This document shows positions 20,841 to 49,436 of a stretch of DNA of 64,000 bases, piece after piece. The translations under genes and the position numbers were made by a program. Under the pieces are notes generated by a model. The model was given only the letters and a program-made list of their open reading frames with translations, was not told the DNA's origin and did not search any database. Positions within the stretch are counted from its first letter, which is position 1. Each line of letters starts with the position of its first letter. Source of the DNA: a virus; IMG/VR virus record IMGVR_UViG_3300001846_000239, positions 48,995-112,994 of that record. The stretch is one strand, 5' to 3'.

Positions 20841-21104
20841 ATGAGCGAATTATTAGACTTTGATTTCGGCTTTACGGCTGTCGATGAAGACGAGCTGGAG
20901 GCTGTACAATCCGTAAAAAATGAAGCTTCAGATGCTTCTGCAACCGCACAAGAATTAGAGGATAAGTTAAATAGACTTTATAACTCAATTCTTCCTTTAC
21001 TTACAAATTTAAAAAAGAATCCAGAAAAAGAATATATTCTTTGGCCGAATAGAGTCGAGAAGATAGAACAATTTGAAGATTTAATATCGGGGATAATAAA
21101 GTAA
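20841..21104 (+). CDS. Small acidic virion-associated-like protein
   Basis: 87 residues, acidic N-terminus (MSELLDFDFGFTAVDEDELE), a coiled helix around ATAQELEDKLNRLYNSILP, and EYILWPNRVEKIEQF near the end. The C-terminal WPNR pattern is familiar from small proteins encoded next to tail-fibre genes in cyanophages. First gene after a late promoter, so expressed with structural genes; function unknown. Confidence 0.65.
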   Translation: MSELLDFDFGFTAVDEDELEAVQSVKNEASDASATAQELEDKLNRLYNSILPLLTNLKKNPEKEYILWPNRVEKIEQFEDLISGIIK

Positions 21105-23254
21105 TGGCATATATGAATGCATCAGGTGCTATTGGCCTGAAAGACGCTGGGTATGACTATACATCTGATTGGGAAGCCTTAAGCACGACGATAACTAGTG
21201 GTTCTAGAAGTATTGAAATGAACGTAGCAGTTTATTACTCATGTATACCACAAAGTAGTGGATATACAGCTATTCATCGTGGAGCGGCTGGAGCAATGTA
21301 TGGTTATGCGTTATCTTTGGATACAAGTCATGCTGATATCCAACTTGGATATTCGGTTCATAGAGGCGCCGTAGCCGCTGGTTCTGGTACATTTTACTCG
21401 TCAGATCTAGGAACTAATATTTACGGTTCAGATTACCGAAGCAGCGCTGGATATACTACTAGTAATTGGACGCACCGATCATGGCCCGAATCTACAAATG
21501 CCAATGAAGCTATTTGTCCGGCAAATATTTCATGTTTTTCTTCTATATCTGGATTATATTCTAGTTCGGGTTCTGCAATAGGTTCTCTTGGTTCAGGATG
21601 GAATGGAACATATACATCTGAAAATGGTACAGGATGGAAAGTAACTCAAATATTATGGCATCAAGATACTGTTACATCAGCAGGTACAAATAAGACATGG
21701 GAAAATATAAGTGGTGGCACTTTATATGGAGGAACCCATAATACTTCTACAGATGCTGGTAACTTTTTTACAATATCAATGAAAAGAACAGATGGTGGAA
21801 CAATTACCAGTTCGGATATCGCGGCTGAAGATACATTTAAAAAAATTCTAATGGGTAACCAATATTTTTATCATTATAATTGTGATAGTATTATCTACAG
21901 TGGTTCTTACATTAATTTCAGATGGAAGATAACTGATGCCGTAAGAGCTTCGATCGGTAGTACAGGTAGTAAAACATTTAAAATATATGGTAATACTCAG
22001 ACACCTAAAAATGGAATTGCTGAACTTCATGGCGGTAATGATACAACCAACATTGCTCTTTCAGAGTATTATAGCGGTGGAGCATATACGCATAGTTCTA
22101 ATACTAGTGTACCAACTAGTGGCGCGATATCTATGGGTGATTTTTATGATACTATACACGGCGATCCAACTTACATGAATACATCTAACATTAATATAAC
22201 CGCTGGGTTTAATGAGATTCATGGTGGTGGATCAACAACACAACGTGCTGGAACCAGAGCTGACGTTACGTTTAAGCCAACTGGCATAGATATAAATTTT
22301 AGGGATTATGATACAACCTCTAGCTATCTCGATTATACTGCCAATATATTATTTAGTGGTGGACGGGATTCAATGCCTGGAACAATAACTCCGGAAGATG
22401 GTACTTATATTACTTCAATAAGAATGCGTTGGAGACTTCATAATTATGGAGTAGATCATACTGGAACAAGCGGCGGTGGTACTAGGACGACCTATATGTA
22501 TGGTCATGATTCGGGTACAGGATATACATGGATCGACTCTGATTGGTCCGAGTCTTTATCTGCTCATACACCAAATAATACAAGTGTATATAGTTCTTGG
22601 AGAACATATAGCTTTCCTAATGGAATTACTAGTAACCAAAATCGTACTATAGGCTTAGAATGCCGGGCAAACGCAGGCGGTCCTAATGGTGTAAATGTTG
22701 CGGTCTCACAATTATATGCTAATAGCGGAGGATATTTCCGATTAGAAATTGAGGTATTTAGTGAAGGTACTTCTGATACAATAACTTATACAAGAAATTA
22801 TGTTGATAGTAATACTCCTAAGCTTTCTGCACAATCGACTGATTCTAATTTCTCATGTATTTTACCTGATACAATTGTTGAAGAATGTACAAAAGGATTT
22901 ATCCCAGCAAGCGAGGTTGAACAAGGAGACAAAATAAAAGCTAAAGGCGATTTAAATGATCCAACAGTTGAAGACCAATATGTTCGTGTGTTAGGTATAG
23001 AAGAGCATCCTAGATCAGGTTATTATGATCTTATGGGAGTTGGTATTACAGGAGATCACCCGATTAGATTACTAAATGCTAATGAATGGATTAAAGTCGA
23101 AGACTTAAATGATGATGTTGACTGTGAATATGTAGAAGAATCTTGTACTCCTTTGTATATAAGAACTGCCCCGGGTTGGTTCTACGTATATCATCCAGGT
23201 GATGATTATATGAAAACAACTGTGAGCGGCGATTATGCGCAAGGATCTGATTAA
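21104..23254 (+). CDS. Fibre/adhesin-like protein with C-terminal Hint (intein-like) domain
   Basis: 716 residues. About 1-580 are Gly/Ser/Thr/Tyr-rich beta-type sequence without Cys clusters, as in secreted or tail-fibre proteins. From Cys585 the sequence becomes a Hint domain: CILPDTIVEECTKGFIPASE then VEQGDKIKAKG (N-block with the self-splicing Cys), and GITGDHPIRL (T-x-x-H block). The terminal His-Asn needed for full splicing is absent, so hedgehog-like N-S shift and cleavage or ligation after Ser584 is the expected chemistry, by family knowledge. It is preceded by a late promoter operon start and overlaps a nucleotidyltransferase gene by 20 bases. Confidence 0.8.
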   Translation: MAYMNASGAIGLKDAGYDYTSDWEALSTTITSGSRSIEMNVAVYYSCIPQSSGYTAIHRGAAGAMYGYALSLDTSHADIQLGYSVHRGAVAAGSGTFYSSDLGTNIYGSDYRSSAGYTTSNWTHRSWPESTNANEAICPANISCFSSISGLYSSSGSAIGSLGSGWNGTYTSENGTGWKVTQILWHQDTVTSAGTNKTWENISGGTLYGGTHNTSTDAGNFFTISMKRTDGGTITSSDIAAEDTFKKILMGNQYFYHYNCDSIIYSGSYINFRWKITDAVRASIGSTGSKTFKIYGNTQTPKNGIAELHGGNDTTNIALSEYYSGGAYTHSSNTSVPTSGAISMGDFYDTIHGDPTYMNTSNINITAGFNEIHGGGSTTQRAGTRADVTFKPTGIDINFRDYDTTSSYLDYTANILFSGGRDSMPGTITPEDGTYITSIRMRWRLHNYGVDHTGTSGGGTRTTYMYGHDSGTGYTWIDSDWSESLSAHTPNNTSVYSSWRTYSFPNGITSNQNRTIGLECRANAGGPNGVNVAVSQLYANSGGYFRLEIEVFSEGTSDTITYTRNYVDSNTPKLSAQSTDSNFSCILPDTIVEECTKGFIPASEVEQGDKIKAKGDLNDPTVEDQYVRVLGIEEHPRSGYYDLMGVGITGDHPIRLLNANEWIKVEDLNDDVDCEYVEESCTPLYIRTAPGWFYVYHPGDDYMKTTVSGDYAQGSD

Positions 23255-23690: not shown

Positions 23691-24297
23691 TATAGATTAT
23701 TTAAGAAAGAATATTATTAGTGAGAAATGGCCAGTAGAAACTGGAATAGGATCTCCGCCTCAACCATATTATCATGGTTTAGGTTGTATAAGATTAGCAA
23801 TGAAGGATAAAAGTTTTATTAATTTTTATTCTAAGGACATAGAGGCTGAGACTAAATTTTTACATACTCATAGAGAGAATTTTTGGTCTAAAAGCTTACA
23901 TGGAAGCTATAAGAATATATTATACGACGTAGTTCCAACGAATTATGATACAGGTTGGAAACAAGTCAATATAGTATGTCAGTCAGGTAAAAATCCAACT
24001 GATGTATTTAGTAATGTAAAAGTTACTAAAATGGATGAATTTGTATTAGAAGAAGGAAAAGAGCTATTTCATAATTATAGTGATTTTCATGATATTGAAT
24101 TATTGACAGATCATGTGATAACTCAAGTAAAATTTGATTTTTCACCACCATATCCTGTCAACTATAGATTTAATATTCTTCCAAAATTGGTTGTGCCAAA
24201 TGAGGCACAAAATATTAACGCTTTGAATAATTATGGAAATGAAGAAAATAACTGGGAAATCATTTCTGGAATTTTAAATAGCATAAATAAAACATAA
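23683..24297 (+). CDS. Cupin-like protein, unknown function
   Basis: 204 residues, overlapping the nucleotidyltransferase gene by eight bases. FLHTHRENFWSKSLHGSYKN followed by ILYDVVP resembles the first metal-binding motif of cupins (H-x-H...), and further beta strands follow. I recall related H-x-H proteins in cyanophages annotated only as hypothetical. It forms a three-gene set with the Hint protein and the nucleotidyltransferase. Confidence 0.55.
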   Translation: MFDIDYLRKNIISEKWPVETGIGSPPQPYYHGLGCIRLAMKDKSFINFYSKDIEAETKFLHTHRENFWSKSLHGSYKNILYDVVPTNYDTGWKQVNIVCQSGKNPTDVFSNVKVTKMDEFVLEEGKELFHNYSDFHDIELLTDHVITQVKFDFSPPYPVNYRFNILPKLVVPNEAQNINALNNYGNEENNWEIISGILNSINKT

Positions 24298-24307
24298 AGG
24301 AGAAAAT

Positions 24308-24772
24308 ATGTTTTTCGGTAGAGACAAAGAAATTGATGTGGATCAGTTGAGGGAACAATTGATTATAGATGAGGGACAAGTAAATGAAATTTATCATGAC
24401 CATTTGGGTTATGCTACTTTTGGTATTGGACACTTGGTCATTGAAGGAGACCCAGAATATGGGTTACCGGTCGGTACTCCAGTGGCAGAGGATAGAGTTA
24501 TTACATGCTTTGAAAAGGATGTAGAAACTGTTATTGATGATTGTAAAAAATTACATGAAGGCTGGGAAGATTATCCTCAAGAAGTAAAACAGATCATTGC
24601 GAACATGATGTTCAACATGGGACTCACGCGCTTGAGTAAATTTAAAAAGCACAACGCAGCGCTGCAATGTGGTGATTGGAAGGAGGCTGCTGTAGAAGGC
24701 AGAGATTCAAGATGGTACAAACAAGTGACGAACAGAGCAGAGAGACTTATGTCGAGACTCGAGGCGGTGTAG
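24308..24772 (+). CDS. e: T4-type lysozyme (endolysin, GH24)
   Basis: 154 residues versus 164 in T4 lysozyme. The catalytic triad pattern Glu-8-Asp-5-Thr is seen in IIDEGQVNEIYHDHLGYATF, followed by GIGHLV; the C-terminus ANMMFNMGLTRLSKF and SRWYKQVTNRAERL is typical. It hydrolyses peptidoglycan. No signal sequence is present, so it would need a holin. AAGGAG precedes the ATG. The spike protein gp5 of this phage lacks a lysozyme domain, so this is the only recognisable muramidase in the window. Confidence 0.93.
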   Translation: MFFGRDKEIDVDQLREQLIIDEGQVNEIYHDHLGYATFGIGHLVIEGDPEYGLPVGTPVAEDRVITCFEKDVETVIDDCKKLHEGWEDYPQEVKQIIANMMFNMGLTRLSKFKKHNAALQCGDWKEAAVEGRDSRWYKQVTNRAERLMSRLEAV

Positions 24773-24903
24773 ATTATTATCACACTAATAAGCCACAAGA
24801 AACTAAAGGCTGGTTTTGGTGTTGTGAAAAACGAGGGTATTTTAGATACTCTGACTGGAATAAAAGTTTAGAAGAAATTTTAGGAGAAAAAAATGAAAAT
24901 TAG
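24712..24903 (+). CDS. Small protein overlapping lysozyme gene
   Basis: 63 residues from ATG 24712, beginning inside the last 60 bases of the lysozyme gene. KGWFWCCEKRGYFRYSDW is rich in aromatics and Cys. No clear ribosome site. The frame continues well past the lysozyme stop and ends in the start of the next gene, which supports it as coding. Confidence 0.5.
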   Translation: MVQTSDEQSRETYVETRGGVDYYHTNKPQETKGWFWCCEKRGYFRYSDWNKSLEEILGEKNEN

Positions 24904-25132
24904 ATTACAAGGTAGTCAAGGAGATCTGACTGCAGCCTCAAATGTAGGCTTTGCAACTGCTGTAAGAGTTTACAATAGCGGCGGAACAGATCTAGTATTG
25001 ACGCAAAAAGAAGGTGCTGCTGTTGTCGGCACAATCACTATTGCTAAATATACCTCTGAAGTAATTGTTAAACAACCTGCTGATACCTTAGAAGGCGGCG
25101 CGGCATTAAAAGTTGTGTCTATTGCTCAATAA
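24893..25132 (+). CDS. Small beta-rich protein, possible virion protein
   Basis: 79 residues (MKIRLQGSQGDLTAASNVGF onward), low in charge, beta-strand and Gly/Ala/Val-rich, ending LKVVSIAQ. TTAGGAGAAA precedes the ATG. I recall similar small proteins in marine T4-like phages near lysis and fibre genes. Function unknown. Confidence 0.6.
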   Translation: MKIRLQGSQGDLTAASNVGFATAVRVYNSGGTDLVLTQKEGAAVVGTITIAKYTSEVIVKQPADTLEGGAALKVVSIAQ

Positions 25133-25141
25133 ACATAAGTT

Positions 25142-25438
25142 ATGACTGATGTTTTTGGTATTATAAATGATGTAGGATTACCTATTGCTGGTGCGATGGC
25201 ATCCGGCTTTTTTATATTTACCATTATTAAACAAATGTTAGCTGGTGTTCTTGAGCAAATAGACACATTAAATATGTTTACTAAAAGCTTAGAGAATCGA
25301 GCTCGCACTATGAACAACGAGATTATAAAAATCGATATGTTAGTTTCTAGTGCATTGGAATTAACTCCACCTACAGATAGGATAGCGAGGGCGGAAAACT
25401 TTGTCGAAGACGGCAAAATAGATACTAGACGGGATTAA
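25142..25438 (+). CDS. Small membrane protein, holin candidate
   Basis: 98 residues with one hydrophobic segment about residues 11-34 (VGLPIAGAMASGFFIFTIIK) and a charged helical tail ending RRD. Position after the lysozyme makes it a candidate holin or holin partner, but a single segment is at the lower limit of known holins. The next gene is similar in architecture. Confidence 0.55.
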   Translation: MTDVFGIINDVGLPIAGAMASGFFIFTIIKQMLAGVLEQIDTLNMFTKSLENRARTMNNEIIKIDMLVSSALELTPPTDRIARAENFVEDGKIDTRRD

Positions 25439-25440
25439 TT

Positions 25441-25722
25441 ATGGAATCCTTAAATCCCGTTGAGTTGATAGAACAATATGGTTTTACTACTGTAGCTATT
25501 GTAGCTATGGGGTATTTTGTGTATTTCGTTTGGAAATATGTTAATGAACAATTGAATCCCAAACTAGAAGAAATGCACATGGGCCTTATTCGACTAATAG
25601 ATCAAATTAGGATGCTTGATCAAGATATGATTAGACTACAAGAAAAAGTGAAAGTAGTTTTGGAGTATAGGGAAAGACAAAAACAAATGAGTGAAAATAA
25701 AAATGAAGAGAGTAAAAAATAG
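25441..25722 (+). CDS. Small membrane protein with coiled-coil tail
   Basis: 93 residues, hydrophobic span about 14-32 (TTVAIVAMGYFVYFVWKYV) followed by a cytoplasmic or periplasmic coiled coil (LIDQIRMLDQDMIRLQEKV) and a charged tail. Starts two bases after the previous stop and overlaps the CsgF-like gene by 20 bases. Possibly a holin-type pair with its neighbour; placement directly before csgF also allows a role in the export cassette. Confidence 0.55.
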   Translation: MESLNPVELIEQYGFTTVAIVAMGYFVYFVWKYVNEQLNPKLEEMHMGLIRLIDQIRMLDQDMIRLQEKVKVVLEYRERQKQMSENKNEESKK

Positions 25723-26197
25723 TATAGTATTATCATGCGCGTTTATCATGATATCTGGGATAGTTCATTCCCAAGAAATCGTACACGAGTTTAAAAATCC
25801 ATCTTTTAGTGGTATAGGAACTGGTGCACATTATCTTACAATTGAAAACCAAGAACATAGTAGGAAAAAAGCTATTGAGGATGCTTTGGAAGCCGCAAGA
25901 AAAGCTGCTGAAAGAGCTGAAGAAAATACAACACTAGCTAAGTTTATTCGTAACTTAGAAAGTAGAATATATGCTCAAATGGCTAAGCAATTAGTTGAAT
26001 CTATGTTTTCTAATGATAATGCTGTAAGGTTTGGTTCATTTACATTGGAAGGATCAATCATTACTTATGAAGTAATCACCAATGATGATGGTACAGAATT
26101 TATTAAAATGACCATTACAGGTGAAGATGGATCGGAAACAATAATCGAAATACCAGTAGGATCTGGCAATTTCGGCCAGGATCCAGACAATGGCTAG
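25703..26197 (+). CDS. csgF: CsgF-like curli assembly factor
   Basis: ATG 25703 gives MKRVKNSIVLSCAFIMISGI, a Sec signal ending near VHSQ. The mature N-terminus (EIVHEFKNPSFSGIGTGAHY) matches the E. coli CsgF segment F-x-F-R-N-P-x-F-G-G that inserts into the CsgG pore, followed by a helical region with a Gln/Glu/Ala heptad pattern and a beta C-terminus (TFTLEGSIITYEVI, MTITGEDGSETII) equivalent to the CsgF C-terminal domain. 164 residues versus 138 in E. coli. CsgF couples secretion to surface nucleation of curli. The gene overlaps csgG by eight bases. Confidence 0.85.
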   Translation: MKRVKNSIVLSCAFIMISGIVHSQEIVHEFKNPSFSGIGTGAHYLTIENQEHSRKKAIEDALEAARKAAERAEENTTLAKFIRNLESRIYAQMAKQLVESMFSNDNAVRFGSFTLEGSIITYEVITNDDGTEFIKMTITGEDGSETIIEIPVGSGNFGQDPDNG

Positions 26198-27131
26198 AAT
26201 TTTACTATTAGTTTTATTTTTGAGCGGATGTTCATCAATGCCTCAGTGGAGTCCTAATCCACAGGATTGTACACCTCCAGAAATAAAAGATGTTGTAACA
26301 TTAGCACAACAAGTAAAACGTAAATATATTTGTGTTGATATGCCTGAAGTAGTTAAACTACCAGCATACGTAGAATTATTAAATGTACCGCCGGCAAAAG
26401 AAATGCCAGTTGTTGCGGTATACGGTTTTACCGATAAAACGGGACAAAGAAAAGCTCGTGATGGTATTGCAGATTTTTCAACTGCAGTAACTCAAGGTGG
26501 AACCGAAATGTTAATTGATGCTTTGAAGACTGCCGGTGGTGGTACGTGGTTCAGAGTTGTTGAAAGACAAGGAATCGATAATCTTATAAGAGAAAGACAA
26601 ATAGTAAGGTCTACTCGAGAAGATGTCGCTAAAGCCCAGGGGACTGAGGCAAAAGGAGTTGGACCACTTCTATTCGCAGGAATGATAATAGAAGGTGGAA
26701 TAATTGGTTATGATTCTAATATCGAAACTGGAGGTCGAGGCGCAAGAACTCTAGGAATCGGTTTTAGTAAACAATATCGTAAGGACGTTGTAACAGTTTC
26801 TATAAGAGCGGTTTCTGTTTTAACGGGTGAAGTATTATTGAATGTCCAAAGTAGGAAATCGGTATTATCCTACGGATCAGGCGGGGATGTGTTTAGGTTT
26901 ATTGAACAGGGAACACAGCTTGTCGAATACGAGGACGGGGTGGGTAATAATGAGTCGGTGACATACGCGGTACGAACAGCTATTGAAGCTGGCGTGCTGG
27001 AACTAATATACCAGGGTCATGACCGTAAATTCTGGGATTTAACAGAGGGCCACCGTCATCCACACCAAAGGGATGGTAAGAATGATAGGCACTCACAAAA
27101 TGAGGAAAACAAAAATGAAGAAACTAATTAG
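26190..27131 (+). CDS. csgG: CsgG-like outer-membrane curli secretion channel lipoprotein
   Basis: 313 residues. Lipobox LSGC puts the lipidated residue at Cys14. Core landmarks of CsgG are present in order: VVAVYGFTDKTGQ, DFSTAVTQGG, WFRVVERQGIDNLIRERQIV, GMIIEGGIIGYDSNIETGG and GARTLGIG, VLSYGSGGDVFRFIE, and FWDLTE at the end. CsgG forms a nonameric export pore. The constriction loop differs: aligned to E. coli Tyr51-Asn55-Phe56, this protein has Asp, Asp and Phe. About 45 residues are inserted after the lipobox and a charged His/Asn/Glu tail is added at the C-terminus. Confidence 0.95.
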   Translation: MARILLLVLFLSGCSSMPQWSPNPQDCTPPEIKDVVTLAQQVKRKYICVDMPEVVKLPAYVELLNVPPAKEMPVVAVYGFTDKTGQRKARDGIADFSTAVTQGGTEMLIDALKTAGGGTWFRVVERQGIDNLIRERQIVRSTREDVAKAQGTEAKGVGPLLFAGMIIEGGIIGYDSNIETGGRGARTLGIGFSKQYRKDVVTVSIRAVSVLTGEVLLNVQSRKSVLSYGSGGDVFRFIEQGTQLVEYEDGVGNNESVTYAVRTAIEAGVLELIYQGHDRKFWDLTEGHRHPHQRDGKNDRHSQNEENKNEETN

Positions 27132-27849
27132 TATAGTTTTACTATTGTCGACATCATTCGTTTTTGCACAAGCCACAGATGATAATGAAATCATGATCGA
27201 ACAAAGTGGTGACACTTTGACATTATATATTGATCAAATTGGATATGGTAACAAAATTGGACTTGACGATTTTTCATCTTCAGGTTCTGATATGACTATC
27301 ACAGGTTCAGGTTTAACATTTGACCTTGATATGATTGGTAATCAAAATTTAATTTATGGCCCAGTTGTCATGGATTCATCTTCTTTGACTTTCTCTTTAA
27401 CGGGAGATTCAAATGAGGTGGACTGGAATATCGGCTATATCGGTAGTTCAGACGATTCTGATTATAATTTTGACATAACTGGCGATTCAAATACATTTGA
27501 TATCGATCAGGGATATGTTTACAGTGCGGAAAGATTAGATGCTGACTTAATATTAGTTGGTAGTTCTAATGTATTTGATTTAGATTTTGAATCTGATGAT
27601 AGTACATGGAATTTTGATATTACTGGTTCAAGCAATAATATTAATACACTTCAAAACGATGGAGCTCAATCACTTACAGTTGTATATGATGGAGATTCTG
27701 GTGATATTGATATTAATCAAATCAGTGGTACTTGTGCTACTGGTGCAAGTGTTGCTTGTTCAAGTCCAAATGCAACTATTAATTTAGATATTACATCTGA
27801 CAATGCAACAATACAAATCAATCAAAAAGATTCTGCAGGCGATTCATAA
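27115..27849 (+). CDS. Curlin-like secreted repeat protein 1
   Basis: ATG 27115 (AGGAA upstream) gives a signal peptide MKKLISIVLLLSTSFVFA. The mature part of about 225 residues is acidic, Ser/Asn/Asp/Gly-rich, with strand-turn repeats carrying curlin-like Q-x-G and N-x-x (DDNEIMIEQSGDTLTLYIDQ, IGYGNKI, ITGSSNNINTLQNDG, IDINQISG, IQINQKDS). It shares its first mature segment with the second curlin-like gene at 28962. Repeats are more degenerate than CsgA. One Cys pair occurs near the C-terminus. Likely a CsgG-exported amyloid-type subunit, by context and composition. Confidence 0.75.
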   Translation: MKKLISIVLLLSTSFVFAQATDDNEIMIEQSGDTLTLYIDQIGYGNKIGLDDFSSSGSDMTITGSGLTFDLDMIGNQNLIYGPVVMDSSSLTFSLTGDSNEVDWNIGYIGSSDDSDYNFDITGDSNTFDIDQGYVYSAERLDADLILVGSSNVFDLDFESDDSTWNFDITGSSNNINTLQNDGAQSLTVVYDGDSGDIDINQISGTCATGASVACSSPNATINLDITSDNATIQINQKDSAGDS

Positions 27850-28954
27850 TACGCGTCTAACGGCGACGATTAGGAATACTCTGTTACTTTTATTGGTTTA
27901 CACCAATGGGGTCAAAGCTGACTCCATTGGTGACATTGTTGAATCAACTGGTATAGGTTCTATTCTTAGGAACAATATAGAAATACCGCACGAAACAAAT
28001 ACATCAATTGAGCTAAACGATGAAGCTCGAACTGGTAATGGCCGTATGTTAATTATGTTTTTGGATAAAGCAGAATTAGCATTAAGAGAACATTCTGAAG
28101 TAATAATTGATGAGATATATTACGACCCAGATCCTTCATTATCAAAAATGAGTATGAAGTTTACGATGGGTACAGCAAGATTTGCTTCGGGTAGATTAGG
28201 ATTAGTTAATAAAGCTAATATTGATATTACCACACCTACAGCATCAATTGCTGTAAGAGGAACAGACTTTACTACAACAGTAGATGAGATAGGTCGGTCA
28301 CTTATAATTTTATTGCCAGATGACAAAGGTAATCCATCTGGTGAAATTACTGTTACAAATAAAGGTGGAACAGTAACGCTAAATCAAGCATATCAAGCAA
28401 CAATGGTATCTTCTTTAGATAGTAGACCAACACAAGCAGTTAAAGTAAATGGTATTACCCCAGCTTTAATTGATAATATGTTTATTGTATCTCCACCAAA
28501 AGAAGTGGAAGATAAAATAAAAGAAGAAATGGCCGAGGAAAGAGATGAAGATAGAGGTCTATTAGATGTAGACTATTTGGCCTTTGAAGAATTAGAAAAA
28601 GACGAATTAGAAGAAACAACTGAAGATTTAGAGTTTAGTGAATTAGATATCGATGAGCTAGATGTAGAATATTTAGTTGATGTATTGGATATAATTGATT
28701 CCTCTGACCTTTTTGATACTCTTGGAGAGTTTGATATTAAAGGTGCAGCACGAGGATTCAATGACGAATCACAATACAATGTTTATTTACAAGACGGAGA
28801 TTTAGTATTATATAGAAATGTAAATGGACTAATAAGAATTAAATTTGCGGCAGGAGGTAACTTTACTCTTGACACAAATACGCCAACATGGAGTGGTGCA
28901 ATAACAGGTAATGATGCCGAGGATGTATACATTTATATAAATCAACAGAACTGA
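27803..28954 (+). CDS. FecR-domain exported protein
   Basis: 383 residues; ATG 27803 lies inside the curlin gene, and a signal/anchor follows at about 24-40 (IRNTLLLLLVYTNGVKA). Residues about 75-165 are a FecR domain: RTGNGRMLIMFLDKAELALR, the polar strand pair, then MGTARFASGRLG and TTPTASIAVRGTDF. After residue 230 comes a very acidic helical region (about 235-310) and a beta C-terminal domain ending in EDVYIYINQQ. FecR domains act as periplasmic sensors or surface-protein modules. Here the gene is embedded between two curlin-like genes. Confidence 0.85.
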   Translation: MQQYKSIKKILQAIHNTRLTATIRNTLLLLLVYTNGVKADSIGDIVESTGIGSILRNNIEIPHETNTSIELNDEARTGNGRMLIMFLDKAELALREHSEVIIDEIYYDPDPSLSKMSMKFTMGTARFASGRLGLVNKANIDITTPTASIAVRGTDFTTTVDEIGRSLIILLPDDKGNPSGEITVTNKGGTVTLNQAYQATMVSSLDSRPTQAVKVNGITPALIDNMFIVSPPKEVEDKIKEEMAEERDEDRGLLDVDYLAFEELEKDELEETTEDLEFSELDIDELDVEYLVDVLDIIDSSDLFDTLGEFDIKGAARGFNDESQYNVYLQDGDLVLYRNVNGLIRIKFAAGGNFTLDTNTPTWSGAITGNDAEDVYIYINQQN

Positions 28955-28961
28955 GGTGATT

Positions 28962-29657
28962 ATGAAAAACTTAATAGTAAGCTTATTTTTATTTTCTAGC
29001 ATAGCAATTGCTCAAGATGATAACCAAATTACTATAAAACAATCTGGAGATAACTTCTATTTAGAAGTAGAACAAGTCGGATATGGTAATATTATTAAAC
29101 AATGGAGCTCTACTGAAGGAATTGATGGTGCTGATAATATGGTTATTATAAAACAAGCCAATGATAGAGGTAATTCAAACGACGAAAATATAGTAGAAAT
29201 CCGTAGAATTTGGGGAGACAGAAATACTCTTAAACTTGGCCAAGGGTATCAAGTTGGAACTAACGGAACTTTTTCTATGGATTATCAGGAATATGGAGAT
29301 ACCTTTGTACATATAAATGTTACAGGCGATGATAATACTATTCTCATGACACAAAGAACAAATAGTAGCTCCTCAGGTCATGAATATTGGCTACACCTCG
29401 AAGGAGACGATAATGATGTATATACTGTTCAAAGAGAAGGTGGAAGTCAATACATTAATTTAGATATTTACACCGATGGTAATGATGTTGACCTTATTCA
29501 AAAGAATGATGGTGATCATTACATGAGCGTTATATTAAGAGGAACAGAACCAACAGATATTGATGTTACTCAAAACAGCATTAATAATCAATCTTATAGT
29601 ATTACGAATTATTGTTATACGGTTGGAGGTTGTGTTGTGTCGGTAACTCAACAATGA
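28962..29657 (+). CDS. Curlin-like secreted repeat protein 2
   Basis: ATG 28962 (GAGGTG upstream) gives signal MKNLIVSLFLFSSIAIA. The mature 215 residues hold about seven curlin-type strand units ending in Gln: NQITIKQSGDNFYLEVEQ, NMVIIKQAN, NTLKLGQG, NTILMTQ, NDVYTVQ, NDVDLIQK, DIDVTQN and a terminal VVSVTQQ. The regular N-x-x-x-x-Q spacing is clearer than in curlin-like protein 1, with which it shares the N-terminal segment, so the two are paralogues. Two Cys near the C-terminus. Probable amyloid fibre subunit or nucleator. Confidence 0.8.
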   Translation: MKNLIVSLFLFSSIAIAQDDNQITIKQSGDNFYLEVEQVGYGNIIKQWSSTEGIDGADNMVIIKQANDRGNSNDENIVEIRRIWGDRNTLKLGQGYQVGTNGTFSMDYQEYGDTFVHINVTGDDNTILMTQRTNSSSSGHEYWLHLEGDDNDVYTVQREGGSQYINLDIYTDGNDVDLIQKNDGDHYMSVILRGTEPTDIDVTQNSINNQSYSITNYCYTVGGCVVSVTQQ

Positions 29658-31489
29658 AATATATAACGTCAATATGGGCAACACTATTATTTGGCGTTGC
29701 TCTTATCGGACTTAGGGTTATAGATCCTCCAATGGTAGAGCAACTCAGGCTCAATACCTTTGATTCATATATTCGTAGCATTCCTTCAAAGGAATCAAAT
29801 ATAGTATTATTGAATATTTCTGAAGATTCACTTGCTACACTCGGCCAATATCCATTTCCAAGACAAACTTATGCTCAAATGATATCTGATCTCAGGAATG
29901 CGAACGCTGGTATTATTGGCTTTACTATTATGTTTCCAGAAGCTGATAGATTCGGTGGAGATGAAGTGTTTGCTTCATGGGTAAAAGATAATGGTATCAT
30001 ATTGGCACAAGATGCGGATGAGGATGGTAGATCTACTTCAGCTCCTTATGTTGGTACAGCGGTATTTGGAACAGGAGATCCTTTAACCTATACAATCCGA
30101 TATAAAGGTTTAGTCACTAATATACCACAAATAGAAGAAGGTGCGTGGGGACACGGTCTTATTAATGGTATGCCAGAAGTAGACGGATTAGTCAGAAGAA
30201 TCCCGCTCATATCACAAATCAATGGACAACTATATCCATCATTTGCTTTAGAAACTATAAGAGTACTTAATGAAAAAATATCTTATACGGTAAAAGTGAA
30301 TGAAGTCGGAATCGAAGAAATAATACTTAGACCATTTAGAATACCAACTGATGCCAATGGTTCTATGTGGATTAATCCGAATTACACTTTTAAGGAAATA
30401 GACTACGTGTCCAATGAGTCACTACCCGATCTTCAGGGTGCAACTGTATTGGTGGGTCTGACGGCCAAAGGTCTAGCTGCACAGATTGCAACGCCTGCTG
30501 GGATGAGGTCTGCGCATCATCTACAAGCCTCTGTAATTCAGACCTTAATGGAGCAAGAAACTCTTCGTCGTCCCGTGTGGGCGGATCTTCTTGAGATTGT
30601 GGGAATGGTAGTTGGAGCTGTACTTCTTGTTTGTGCAGTTTATTATCTGCCAATTTGGATTTCATTTTCTATATTCTTCGCTATTGTTGGATTAAATAGT
30701 TATGGAGTCTATTACTTGTGGGACAAATCACAGATACTCCTCGACCTTAGCTATTCACTAATATTATATATACTTTTACTAACTTCAGCAAGCTTTAATA
30801 ATTTCTACAAACAGTTCATGCTGAGACAACAGATCAAGAAACAATTCGAAACATATCTTGATCCGAGACAAGTTTATTTATTACAAAAGAATCCAGACTT
30901 ATTAAAGCTCGGGGGTGAACGTAAAGAAATGACGTTCCTCTTTATGGATATATGTGGATTCACACCAGTTTCTGAATACTATAAAAACAATGATGATCCG
31001 GAAGGATTAGTATTACTCATTAATGATTTCTTAGATAATATGACGAAGATCATACTAAAGAATGGTGGAACGATTGACAAATATATGGGTGATTGTATTA
31101 TGGCGTTTTGGAATGCACCAATAGATTGTCCAAATCATGCGGATATGGCAGTTCAAGCAGCAATTGAAATAGAGGAAAAGACGAATGAACTTCGAAAAAT
31201 TTACAAAGAAAGAGGTCTTCCTGACATTAAAGTCGGCACTGGCATTAATACCGGTGATTGCATTGTGGGGAATATGGGAAGCGAATCAAGATTTGACTAT
31301 TCAGTCATTGGAGATGCGGTTAACCTCGCAGCAAGACTTGAGGCTACAGCGGCAAGGGGAGATTATATTGATTGCCCAACCATTATCTCAAGTTATACCG
31401 CAGATCAGTTAACAAGCGTAAAACCTAGACTGGTAGGTAATATCACGGTAAAGGGTAAAGAAGAACTCATAAAAATTTATTCCTTATAA
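29654..31489 (+). CDS. CHASE2-domain class III adenylyl cyclase
   Basis: ATG 29654 overlaps the curlin stop; MKYITSIWATLLFGVALIGL is the first membrane segment. Residues about 35-300 form an extracytoplasmic CHASE2 sensor (FDSYIRSIPSKESNIVLLNI, FPRQTYAQMI), then three hydrophobic spans about 305-385, and the cyclase from about 425. Catalytic features are intact: metal Asp in FLFMDICGFT (about 432) and DKYMGDCIMAFWN (about 480, with the adenine-selecting Lys), VGTGINTGDCIVGNMG, and YSVIGDAVNLAARLE (substrate Asp, transition-state Asn and Arg). It should make cAMP in the host cytoplasm in response to an envelope signal. Its stop ends the late operon. Confidence 0.93.
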   Translation: MKYITSIWATLLFGVALIGLRVIDPPMVEQLRLNTFDSYIRSIPSKESNIVLLNISEDSLATLGQYPFPRQTYAQMISDLRNANAGIIGFTIMFPEADRFGGDEVFASWVKDNGIILAQDADEDGRSTSAPYVGTAVFGTGDPLTYTIRYKGLVTNIPQIEEGAWGHGLINGMPEVDGLVRRIPLISQINGQLYPSFALETIRVLNEKISYTVKVNEVGIEEIILRPFRIPTDANGSMWINPNYTFKEIDYVSNESLPDLQGATVLVGLTAKGLAAQIATPAGMRSAHHLQASVIQTLMEQETLRRPVWADLLEIVGMVVGAVLLVCAVYYLPIWISFSIFFAIVGLNSYGVYYLWDKSQILLDLSYSLILYILLLTSASFNNFYKQFMLRQQIKKQFETYLDPRQVYLLQKNPDLLKLGGERKEMTFLFMDICGFTPVSEYYKNNDDPEGLVLLINDFLDNMTKIILKNGGTIDKYMGDCIMAFWNAPIDCPNHADMAVQAAIEIEEKTNELRKIYKERGLPDIKVGTGINTGDCIVGNMGSESRFDYSVIGDAVNLAARLEATAARGDYIDCPTIISSYTADQLTSVKPRLVGNITVKGKEELIKIYSL

Positions 31490-31541: not shown

Positions 31542-31570
31542 TGTACAAACCTTAAAAACCGCTGTATAAT
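31542..31570 (+). promoter_or_regulatory. Early sigma70-type promoter
   Basis: TGTACA (31542-31547), 17-bp spacer, TATAAT (31565-31570). The region through the next ATG is nearly duplicated at 32418-32486. Confidence 0.9.
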
Positions 31571-32417: not shown

Positions 32418-32446
32418 TGTACAAACCTTAAAAACTGCTGTATAAT
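32418..32446 (+). promoter_or_regulatory. Early sigma70-type promoter (duplicate of 31542)
   Basis: TGTACA (32418-32423), 17 bp, TATAAT (32441-32446). Spacer and leader are nearly identical to those at 31542-31606. Confidence 0.9.
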
Positions 32447-48527: not shown

Positions 48528-49436
48528 ATGAGTTGCGGTAGTAATACAGCATTAGATGCATTAAAGAATAAACAAAACGAATTGAATGCCAAGTTGAAAG
48601 GGGGTAAGGATGCCCTTGGTGATATACAAGGTAAATTAAATGAGATCAAGGCGGAGCTAGATGCGTTTAAGCCGACACTACCACAAACGCAGAGTCTACA
48701 GGATAAGATTAATGAATTATCCGGGACGACGAATCCAATTGATATTACCAGTAAGATTCAGGAAATGAAAGATAAGTTCGGCGCTGCGGTTCCTAACCTG
48801 GATCAGATCTTGGCCGACCTACAACTTGATCAGGAGAGTATGATAAAGAAACTGACCGGGGGTCTTCCCGCTACCAGTAAGTCTGATATCTGTGCTCTTG
48901 TCCCGAATGTAGAGGCCAGTGAAGATGGTACAGTCAAAGAACAACCAACTGAACCAAAGGTTCCGGAAGAACCACCTGCCGCCCCTGAACCTACTCCGGT
49001 GATTGAAAAAGATTTAGAAGAATTAAACAGAACACTTTTACAACAGGCATATAGTAATAATTTAAAATATATTGCTCATCGTGCAAATAGTATATTTGAT
49101 GGATTTGGATCAAGGAAAAAGAATCAGAAGTTTTATGATTCTACCTGGGAAGAACAATGGATAGAACTTCATGAGGCTGCCGGTGCTGACTATAATACCT
49201 ATAGAAAAAATAGTAGAACAAAAGAAGAATTAAGACTGGCCCAAAAGAAATTAAGTTCGAAATATCCAAAGGCAAAATGGGATTTCCAAAAGGAAGGACA
49301 AATATTAAAAGAAACTTATAATCTTGTAAAAGAGGCTAATCCACATTTATATGCGCAGGCTCAAGATTTTAATACGGCTGCAGCCGAATGGTTCGTAAGA
49401 AGAAAGGCTAAAATGGCTGAGAAAACAGCAACATAA
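48528..49436 (+). CDS. Baseplate-associated structural protein, coiled-coil plus helical domain
   Basis: 302 residues. Residues 1-125 are coiled coil (LKNKQNELNAKLKGGKDALG, LGDIQGKLNEIKAELDAFKP), then an acidic Pro-rich linker (KVPEEPPAAPEPTPVIEKDL, about 145-165) and a helical C-terminal domain (AAGADYNTYRKNSRTKEELR). MSCGSNTALDALKNKQ is familiar from marine T4-like phages. The DNA changes from GC-richer to AT-rich at about 49010, precisely at the linker, suggesting a recombined or chimeric gene. Confidence 0.75.
   Translation: MSCGSNTALDALKNKQNELNAKLKGGKDALGDIQGKLNEIKAELDAFKPTLPQTQSLQDKINELSGTTNPIDITSKIQEMKDKFGAAVPNLDQILADLQLDQESMIKKLTGGLPATSKSDICALVPNVEASEDGTVKEQPTEPKVPEEPPAAPEPTPVIEKDLEELNRTLLQQAYSNNLKYIAHRANSIFDGFGSRKKNQKFYDSTWEEQWIELHEAAGADYNTYRKNSRTKEELRLAQKKLSSKYPKAKWDFQKEGQILKETYNLVKEANPHLYAQAQDFNTAAAEWFVRRKAKMAEKTAT

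Follow-up and report, generated by a model that had tools for sequence, protein, structure and literature searches.

A conserved eight-gene block of curli-type export genes in a T4-like marine phage, with signs of late expression

Curli-type genes have been described in phages before. csgF and csgG were reported from pelagimyophages in 2020, with 'sibling capture' proposed (PMC7029224); in 2022 a lysis role was put forward for Melnitz, whose fibre genes were believed absent (PMC9004378), and in the same year the full set, FecR and cyclase included, was published from podo- and myophages together with its expression in ocean metatranscriptomes (PMC9599517). Here we analyse such a cassette in a 64,000-nucleotide stretch of DNA (hereafter the window), positions 48,995 to 112,994 of IMG/VR record IMGVR_UViG_3300001846_000239. 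The stretch comes from a virus record of 112,994 bases, possibly incomplete, that belongs to a T4-like marine phage; PHROGs labels on it mark genes for baseplate, tail, ribonucleotide reductase and single-strand binding functions.

The window has the same order of csgF, csgG, curlin repeat, FecR, curlin repeat and CHASE2-cyclase as the pelagiphage type VIII secretion module (PMC9599517), and HTVC008M (KC465899) and Melnitz (MZ577097) carry the same six genes in that order. Since these phages share the gene order and the whole set was described in 2022, the cassette is already known as a kind, and the view of a first-pass annotation that the full set with sensors was unrecorded does not stand. 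Among about 50,700 phage records, true relatives of the window CsgG were found only in HTVC008M and four Melnitz isolates, and MW574966, one of the genomes from PMC9599517, gave no CsgG match among the phage records. A 'Salmonella phage' match (OR851715.1, S.Kent 1-2-1) comes from a contig of 1.5 kb that bears no annotation, and its CsgG resembles the enterobacterial type; the record is most likely bacterial contamination and was for that reason not counted as phage. In the published module FecR is read as an iron regulator (PMC9599517), whereas here it is a predicted exported protein with a curlin-like tail. With the curli of Enterobacteriaceae (type VIII) the window shares the CsgG pore, CsgF and Sec-exported subunits with asparagine and glutamine (N/Q) repeats, but FecR and a CHASE2-cyclase are added, the curlin repeats are irregular, CsgE was not found, and CsgB, CsgC and CsgD were not recognised (no CsgD test was made). 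What appears to be new, from sequence, are the signs of late expression, one rapidly varying fibre gene and a curlin piece on the 'FecR' protein. Our preferred reading, to which we assign a probability of about 0.6, is an operon of eight genes, transcribed late, for curli (type VIII) export, which makes an amyloid coat monitored by FecR and the cyclase. The genes are as follows.

25142..25438, + strand: tmA, 98 amino acids, one N-terminal hydrophobic helix and then a charged helix, always upstream of tmB-csgF (phrog_18771, 3.2e-24; hydropathy)
25441..25722, + strand: tmB, 93 amino acids, tmA paralogue with an invariant RMLDxDxIR (phrog_18771, 2.9e-27; alignment A2)
25703..26197, + strand: CsgF-like protein, signal peptide and then a EIVHEFKNPSFSG motif (Pfam CsgF, 1.6e-15)
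26190..27131, + strand: CsgG-like outer-membrane pore lipoprotein, lipobox LSGC (Pfam CsgG, 4.5e-51)
27115..27849, + strand: curlin-like protein 1, signal peptide, conserved N/Q positions (Curlin_rpt, 0.0011)
27803..28954, + strand: secreted FecR-domain protein with signal peptide, FecR domain, acidic linker and C-terminal strands ending YIYINQQN (Pfam FecR, 1.4e-7; AlphaFold2)
28962..29657, + strand: curlin-like protein 2, signal peptide, N-x5-Q ladder (alignment A4; AlphaFold2; profile match to curlin 1)
29654..31489, + strand: CHASE2 sensor with class III nucleotide cyclase (Pfam CHASE2, 1.2e-39; Guanylate_cyc, 5.8e-18)

The six genes from CsgF to the cyclase lie on the + strand at 25703-31489, which confirms the place, strand and gene calls of the first-pass annotation; judged from the sequence, curlin 1 is best started at 27115, curlin 2 at 28962 and the cyclase at 29654. 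They had also been called overlapping, which is so for csgF/csgG (8 nt), csgG/curlin 1 (17 nt), curlin 1/fecR (47 nt) and curlin 2/cyclase (4 nt), but fecR and curlin 2 are separated by a 7-nt gap. The conserved block in fact has eight genes, as two small ones at 25142-25722, missed earlier, precede csgF. IMG/VR holds hundreds of relatives of the window CsgG, in 377 confirmed stretches. The order tmA-tmB-csgF-csgG-cur1-fecR-cur2-cyclase was found in 34 of the 35 loci with enough flanking sequence, the last one differing only in having no recognised cur2, and the same block is present in HTVC008M-type loci. In a search seeded with curli-linked copies of tmB, csgF-csgG followed tmB immediately in 61 of the 62 usable loci among the matches listed. 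The cassette is thus kept as a unit, and not scattered or unlinked, in related phages. By profile hidden Markov models, four loci (L306, L307, L314 and L317) have the order tmB-csgF-tmA-csgG, either a real rearrangement or a mis-scored open reading frame.

CsgF scores 57.9 bits in Pfam against a cut-off of 25.8, and CsgG 173.6 bits against 20.8, with G13 and C14 nearly invariant in the CsgG alignment (A6); both are type VIII components by these scores. Curlin-like 1 of the window reaches 19.2 bits for Curlin_rpt, just under the cut-off of 20.7, and curlin-like 2 alone has no Pfam match. At family level, Curlin_rpt matches were obtained for 46 of 47 relatives of curlin 1 (best 1.9e-5) and 28 of 37 of curlin 2 (best 3.4e-9), so it is the families, and not the window proteins' own scores, that identify curlin-repeat subunits. 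The N.h.h.Q motif occurs five times in curlin 2 against 0.15 expected (0 of 5000 shuffles) and twice in curlin 1 against 0.07 expected (P 0.0024). Across 37 curlin 2 sequences the universal or near-universal columns are largely N/Q at a six-residue step (N21-Q27, N88-Q94, N125-Q131, N151-Q157, N174-Q180), which is the spacing of the curlin repeat; N/Q columns are also invariant in the curlin 1 family, and profile comparison ties curlin 2 to curlin 1 at 99.4%. Sequence searches of the curlin and FecR profiles against the PDB returned nothing useful. The AlphaFold2 model of curlin 2 (predicted local distance difference test, pLDDT, 82.5; predicted template modelling score 0.81) has strand pairs every 23-26 residues and predicts stacked beta-arcs lined by N/Q; it is a model of the monomer, and fibre formation is beyond its reach. 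Against viral models, five of the best six matches are annotated 'Curlin associated' (probability 1.00). The earlier description of two curlin-like proteins with signal peptides and N...Q repeats is borne out by the family matches and by motif enrichment over shuffles, the structure prediction gives no unrelated folds, and the homology of CsgG, CsgF and the curlins identifies this phage cassette as a curli-type (type VIII) exporter.

Ratios of nonsynonymous to synonymous substitution rates of 0.06-0.19 in every block gene except curlin 2 indicate purifying selection. Curlin 2 varies more than any other gene of the block: against the relative L001 it is 43% identical, while csgG, fecR and curlin 1 are 91-94% identical, and its identity is always the lowest across 98 full loci. 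Among the core genes in these loci it also tracks its neighbours least (r 0.64, against 0.92-0.93 for csgF and curlin 1), though tmA and tmB track theirs even less (r 0.37 and 0.41).

The FecR protein departs from its published reading. The best PDB match of its model, which was built from IMG/VR rows only, is the PupR cell-surface signalling domain (6ovk, probability 1.00, E 4.2e-3). Unlike PupR/FecR proteins it has no cytoplasmic anti-sigma domain with a membrane helix ahead of the FecR domain, as a signal-peptide-like N-terminus leads at once into the FecR domain and Pfam finds FecR only, and no sigma factor was seen alongside. Its last residues form [IVLF]x[IVLF]xQ, half a curlin repeat, with NAITINQ in the HTVC008M types. 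All but one of 77 distinct C-termini from phages carry this tail (42/42 in one set and 34/35 in the other, 76 in total), against none of 13 FecR proteins outside curli loci, and it may be the point of contact with curlin subunits or fibres. The cyclase of the window retains the two metal-binding Asp residues, the substrate Lys and Asp/Ser position, and the transition-state Asn and Arg; the metal Asp and Lys residues are kept in all 52 relatives covering them, and the other catalytic residues in 50 or 51 of 51.

Signs of late expression come from the T4-type late promoter. Of 123 distinct loci, 71 have the exact sequence TATAAATA in the 80 bp that precede tmA, against 1.5 expected from shuffles; it stands before none of the remaining block genes except cur2 (2 of 97). 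In the HTVC008M-type set, which was not deduplicated, it precedes tmA in 38 of 76 loci. Kinship among loci inflates these counts, whereas the contrast between tmA and its neighbouring genes is independent of kinship. Two features upstream of the block bear on the window itself.

24282..24289, + strand: near-match late promoter CATAAATA, one base off TATAAATA, 26 bp before the lysozyme ATG (24308)
24308..24772, + strand: T4-type lysozyme, no evident signal peptide (Pfam Phage_lysozyme, 2.7e-6)

In the window, CATAAATA is a candidate start of the late transcript. A late promoter before the lysozyme was rejected as a general rule, being present in six of 21 lysozyme-linked loci that lack the tmA promoter. 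Just 3′ of the cassette, before small genes, there are also two near-identical sigma-70-like promoters (TGTACA-17 nt-TATAAT; 31542-31570 and 32418-32446, + strand), which resemble early promoters for the group of genes that follows.

The sensor genes are not confined to phages, because three GTDB alphaproteobacterial genomes carry csgF-csgG-curlin-fecR-CHASE2-cyclase: two metagenome-assembled genomes (MAGs) of Caulobacteraceae (L169 and L170) and Hyphomonas sp. TMED17 (L172), on contigs of 82, 32 and 706 kb respectively. In the two checked, L169 and L172, the neighbours are metabolic and transport genes. This fecR was in none of about 60 other bacterial csgG loci fetched. The bacterial operons hold the same genes as the phages, but they are without tmA and tmB, and fecR follows the curlins instead of lying between them. 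The FecR of both Caulobacteraceae terminates in NVTQD, in the manner of the phage proteins, which places the curlin-like tail in two of the three curli-linked bacterial proteins; that of Hyphomonas has none. In the CsgG tree the three bacteria cluster with the phages in a single clade (100/99) that excludes the other bacteria; the sensors thus came as part of one operon lineage. Within it, the three bacteria are nearest the window's phage clade. Phage-to-bacterium transfer was considered, since the bacterial CsgG fall inside the phage clade, yet a single phage clade is not rejected (approximately unbiased test, P 0.115), so that transfer may have run in either direction. FecR and CHASE2 also lie side by side in a handful of Caulobacterales loci that are not curli loci (L246, L250), too few to generalise them as a pair.

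Under the preferred reading, the phage would late in infection make the CsgG lipoprotein pore, with CsgF presumably assembled at its mouth. The two Sec-exported curlin-like beta-arc proteins would leave through the pore and polymerise on the infected cell as amyloid-like fibres, with curlin 2 as their changeable outer part. FecR would be an exported protein and not an iron or sigma regulator, its tail touching curlin subunits or the growing fibre; its FecR domain may contact the cyclase's periplasmic CHASE2 domain and signal to it, and cyclic AMP (cAMP) would report export or assembly. tmA and tmB would be phage additions, small proteins of the inner membrane. The leading benefits would probably be adhesion or aggregation, or the exclusion of rival phages. 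A more specific version is a closed-loop amyloid exporter, in which the exported FecR, bearing its curlin half-repeat, would detect either the export of curlin or the growth of the fibre and would drive the CHASE2 cyclase, and the rapidly diversifying curlin would be the variable surface part; this we put forward tentatively, as a possible elaboration that is itself rather unlikely.

Several observations weigh against an amyloid coat of this kind. As first noted from the sequence, CsgE is not seen: PF10627 matched nothing in the possibly incomplete 113-kb record, with a positive E. coli control. The CsgE periplasmic gate is not universal outside Gammaproteobacteria. No separate nucleator was recognised, Foldseek gave no significant PDB match to curlin 2 (best E 0.31), and pLDDT is below 50 in most of the C-terminal region of FecR. 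No cAMP-binding protein was found in the incomplete 113-kb record, so that cAMP would need a host target. Melnitz cultures did not clump (PMC9004378), which speaks mildly against aggregation. Lastly, the window has no exact TATAAATA before tmA while many relatives have one; late expression, as the first-pass annotation had proposed it, is for that reason well supported for the family and only presumed for this phage.

The alternative that survives best, though unlikely, is the Melnitz proposal (PMC9004378) of a CsgG-CsgF pore repurposed for lysis timing as a gated secretin or pinholin-like device, with fibres secondary or absent. The late promoter would suit it, as would the two small inner-membrane proteins between lysozyme and csgF and the lysozyme with no evident signal peptide that adjoins the block in many near relatives. 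However, the lysozyme, which neighbours the block in roughly half of the close relatives of the window, is outside the conserved core; in the many loci where it is not beside the block, the curlins, FecR and cyclase persist. The proposal also relied on absent fibre genes, whereas curlin genes are present with constrained N/Q positions, and CsgG belongs to an outer-membrane lipoprotein family and is not an inner-membrane holin.

A second alternative takes tmA and tmB as a holin pair, with the curli genes merely sharing a late transcript with the lysis genes that precede them, and we consider it quite improbable. The two proteins combine one hydrophobic helix (by hydropathy clear in tmA and weaker in tmB) with a charged helix, they follow the lysozyme in the window, and the tmB and tmA-like families have very weak, sub-threshold matches to holin profiles. 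On the other side, the pair stays with csgF-csgG in HTVC008M and Melnitz, where the lysozyme is elsewhere. Among the matches listed, from the curli-linked seeds, the sole tmB away from curli genes is in L144, in which the curli block after tmA-tmB is inverted; this inversion separates the late promoter from the curli block. In PMC9599517 one histidine kinase, or in some cases two, precedes csgF; in the same place the window has these two one-helix proteins of 93-98 amino acids, and none of 35 tmB members scanned with Pfam showed a kinase domain. From their position, tmA and tmB are presumably the published "histidine kinase" genes. Both were seen only in phage-like loci. Blocks of tmA/tmB with csg genes also lie on contigs (L162-L168, L171, L173, L174, L178, L182) filed in MAGs of Bacteroidota, Planctomycetota, Synechococcus, Rhodobacteraceae and Pelagibacter, which look like phage contigs binned with bacteria. 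Finally, a pore for nutrient or cofactor uptake during infection with FecR as an iron-related regulator (PMC7029224, PMC9599517) would fit the missing canonical gate CsgE in the 113-kb record, but it is very improbable given an apparently exported FecR with no anti-sigma part and a curlin-like strand at its end, and two curlins and CsgF kept in the block.

Two neighbouring genes may be mentioned. A 79-amino-acid beta-rich protein between lysozyme and tmA (24893-25132, + strand) is possibly a virion decoration protein, and the C-terminal part (CILPDTIVEECTKGF...TGDHPIRL) of a tail-fibre-like protein (21104-23254, + strand) resembles by eye a self-processing domain of Hint/intein type, with no significant Pfam or PHROGs match.

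In all, the amyloid coat reading implies that phages of the most abundant ocean bacteria spend about 6 kb of genome on a surface amyloid system, which according to published accounts their SAR11 and OM43 hosts do not have. The late promoter indicates when fibres should be sought, and the variable curlin points to the part that interacts with the outside. The curlin tail of FecR suggests a curli-sensing cAMP signal, a circuit that, if true, has not been described in bacteria or phages, and that would extend to the alphaproteobacteria sharing the operon.

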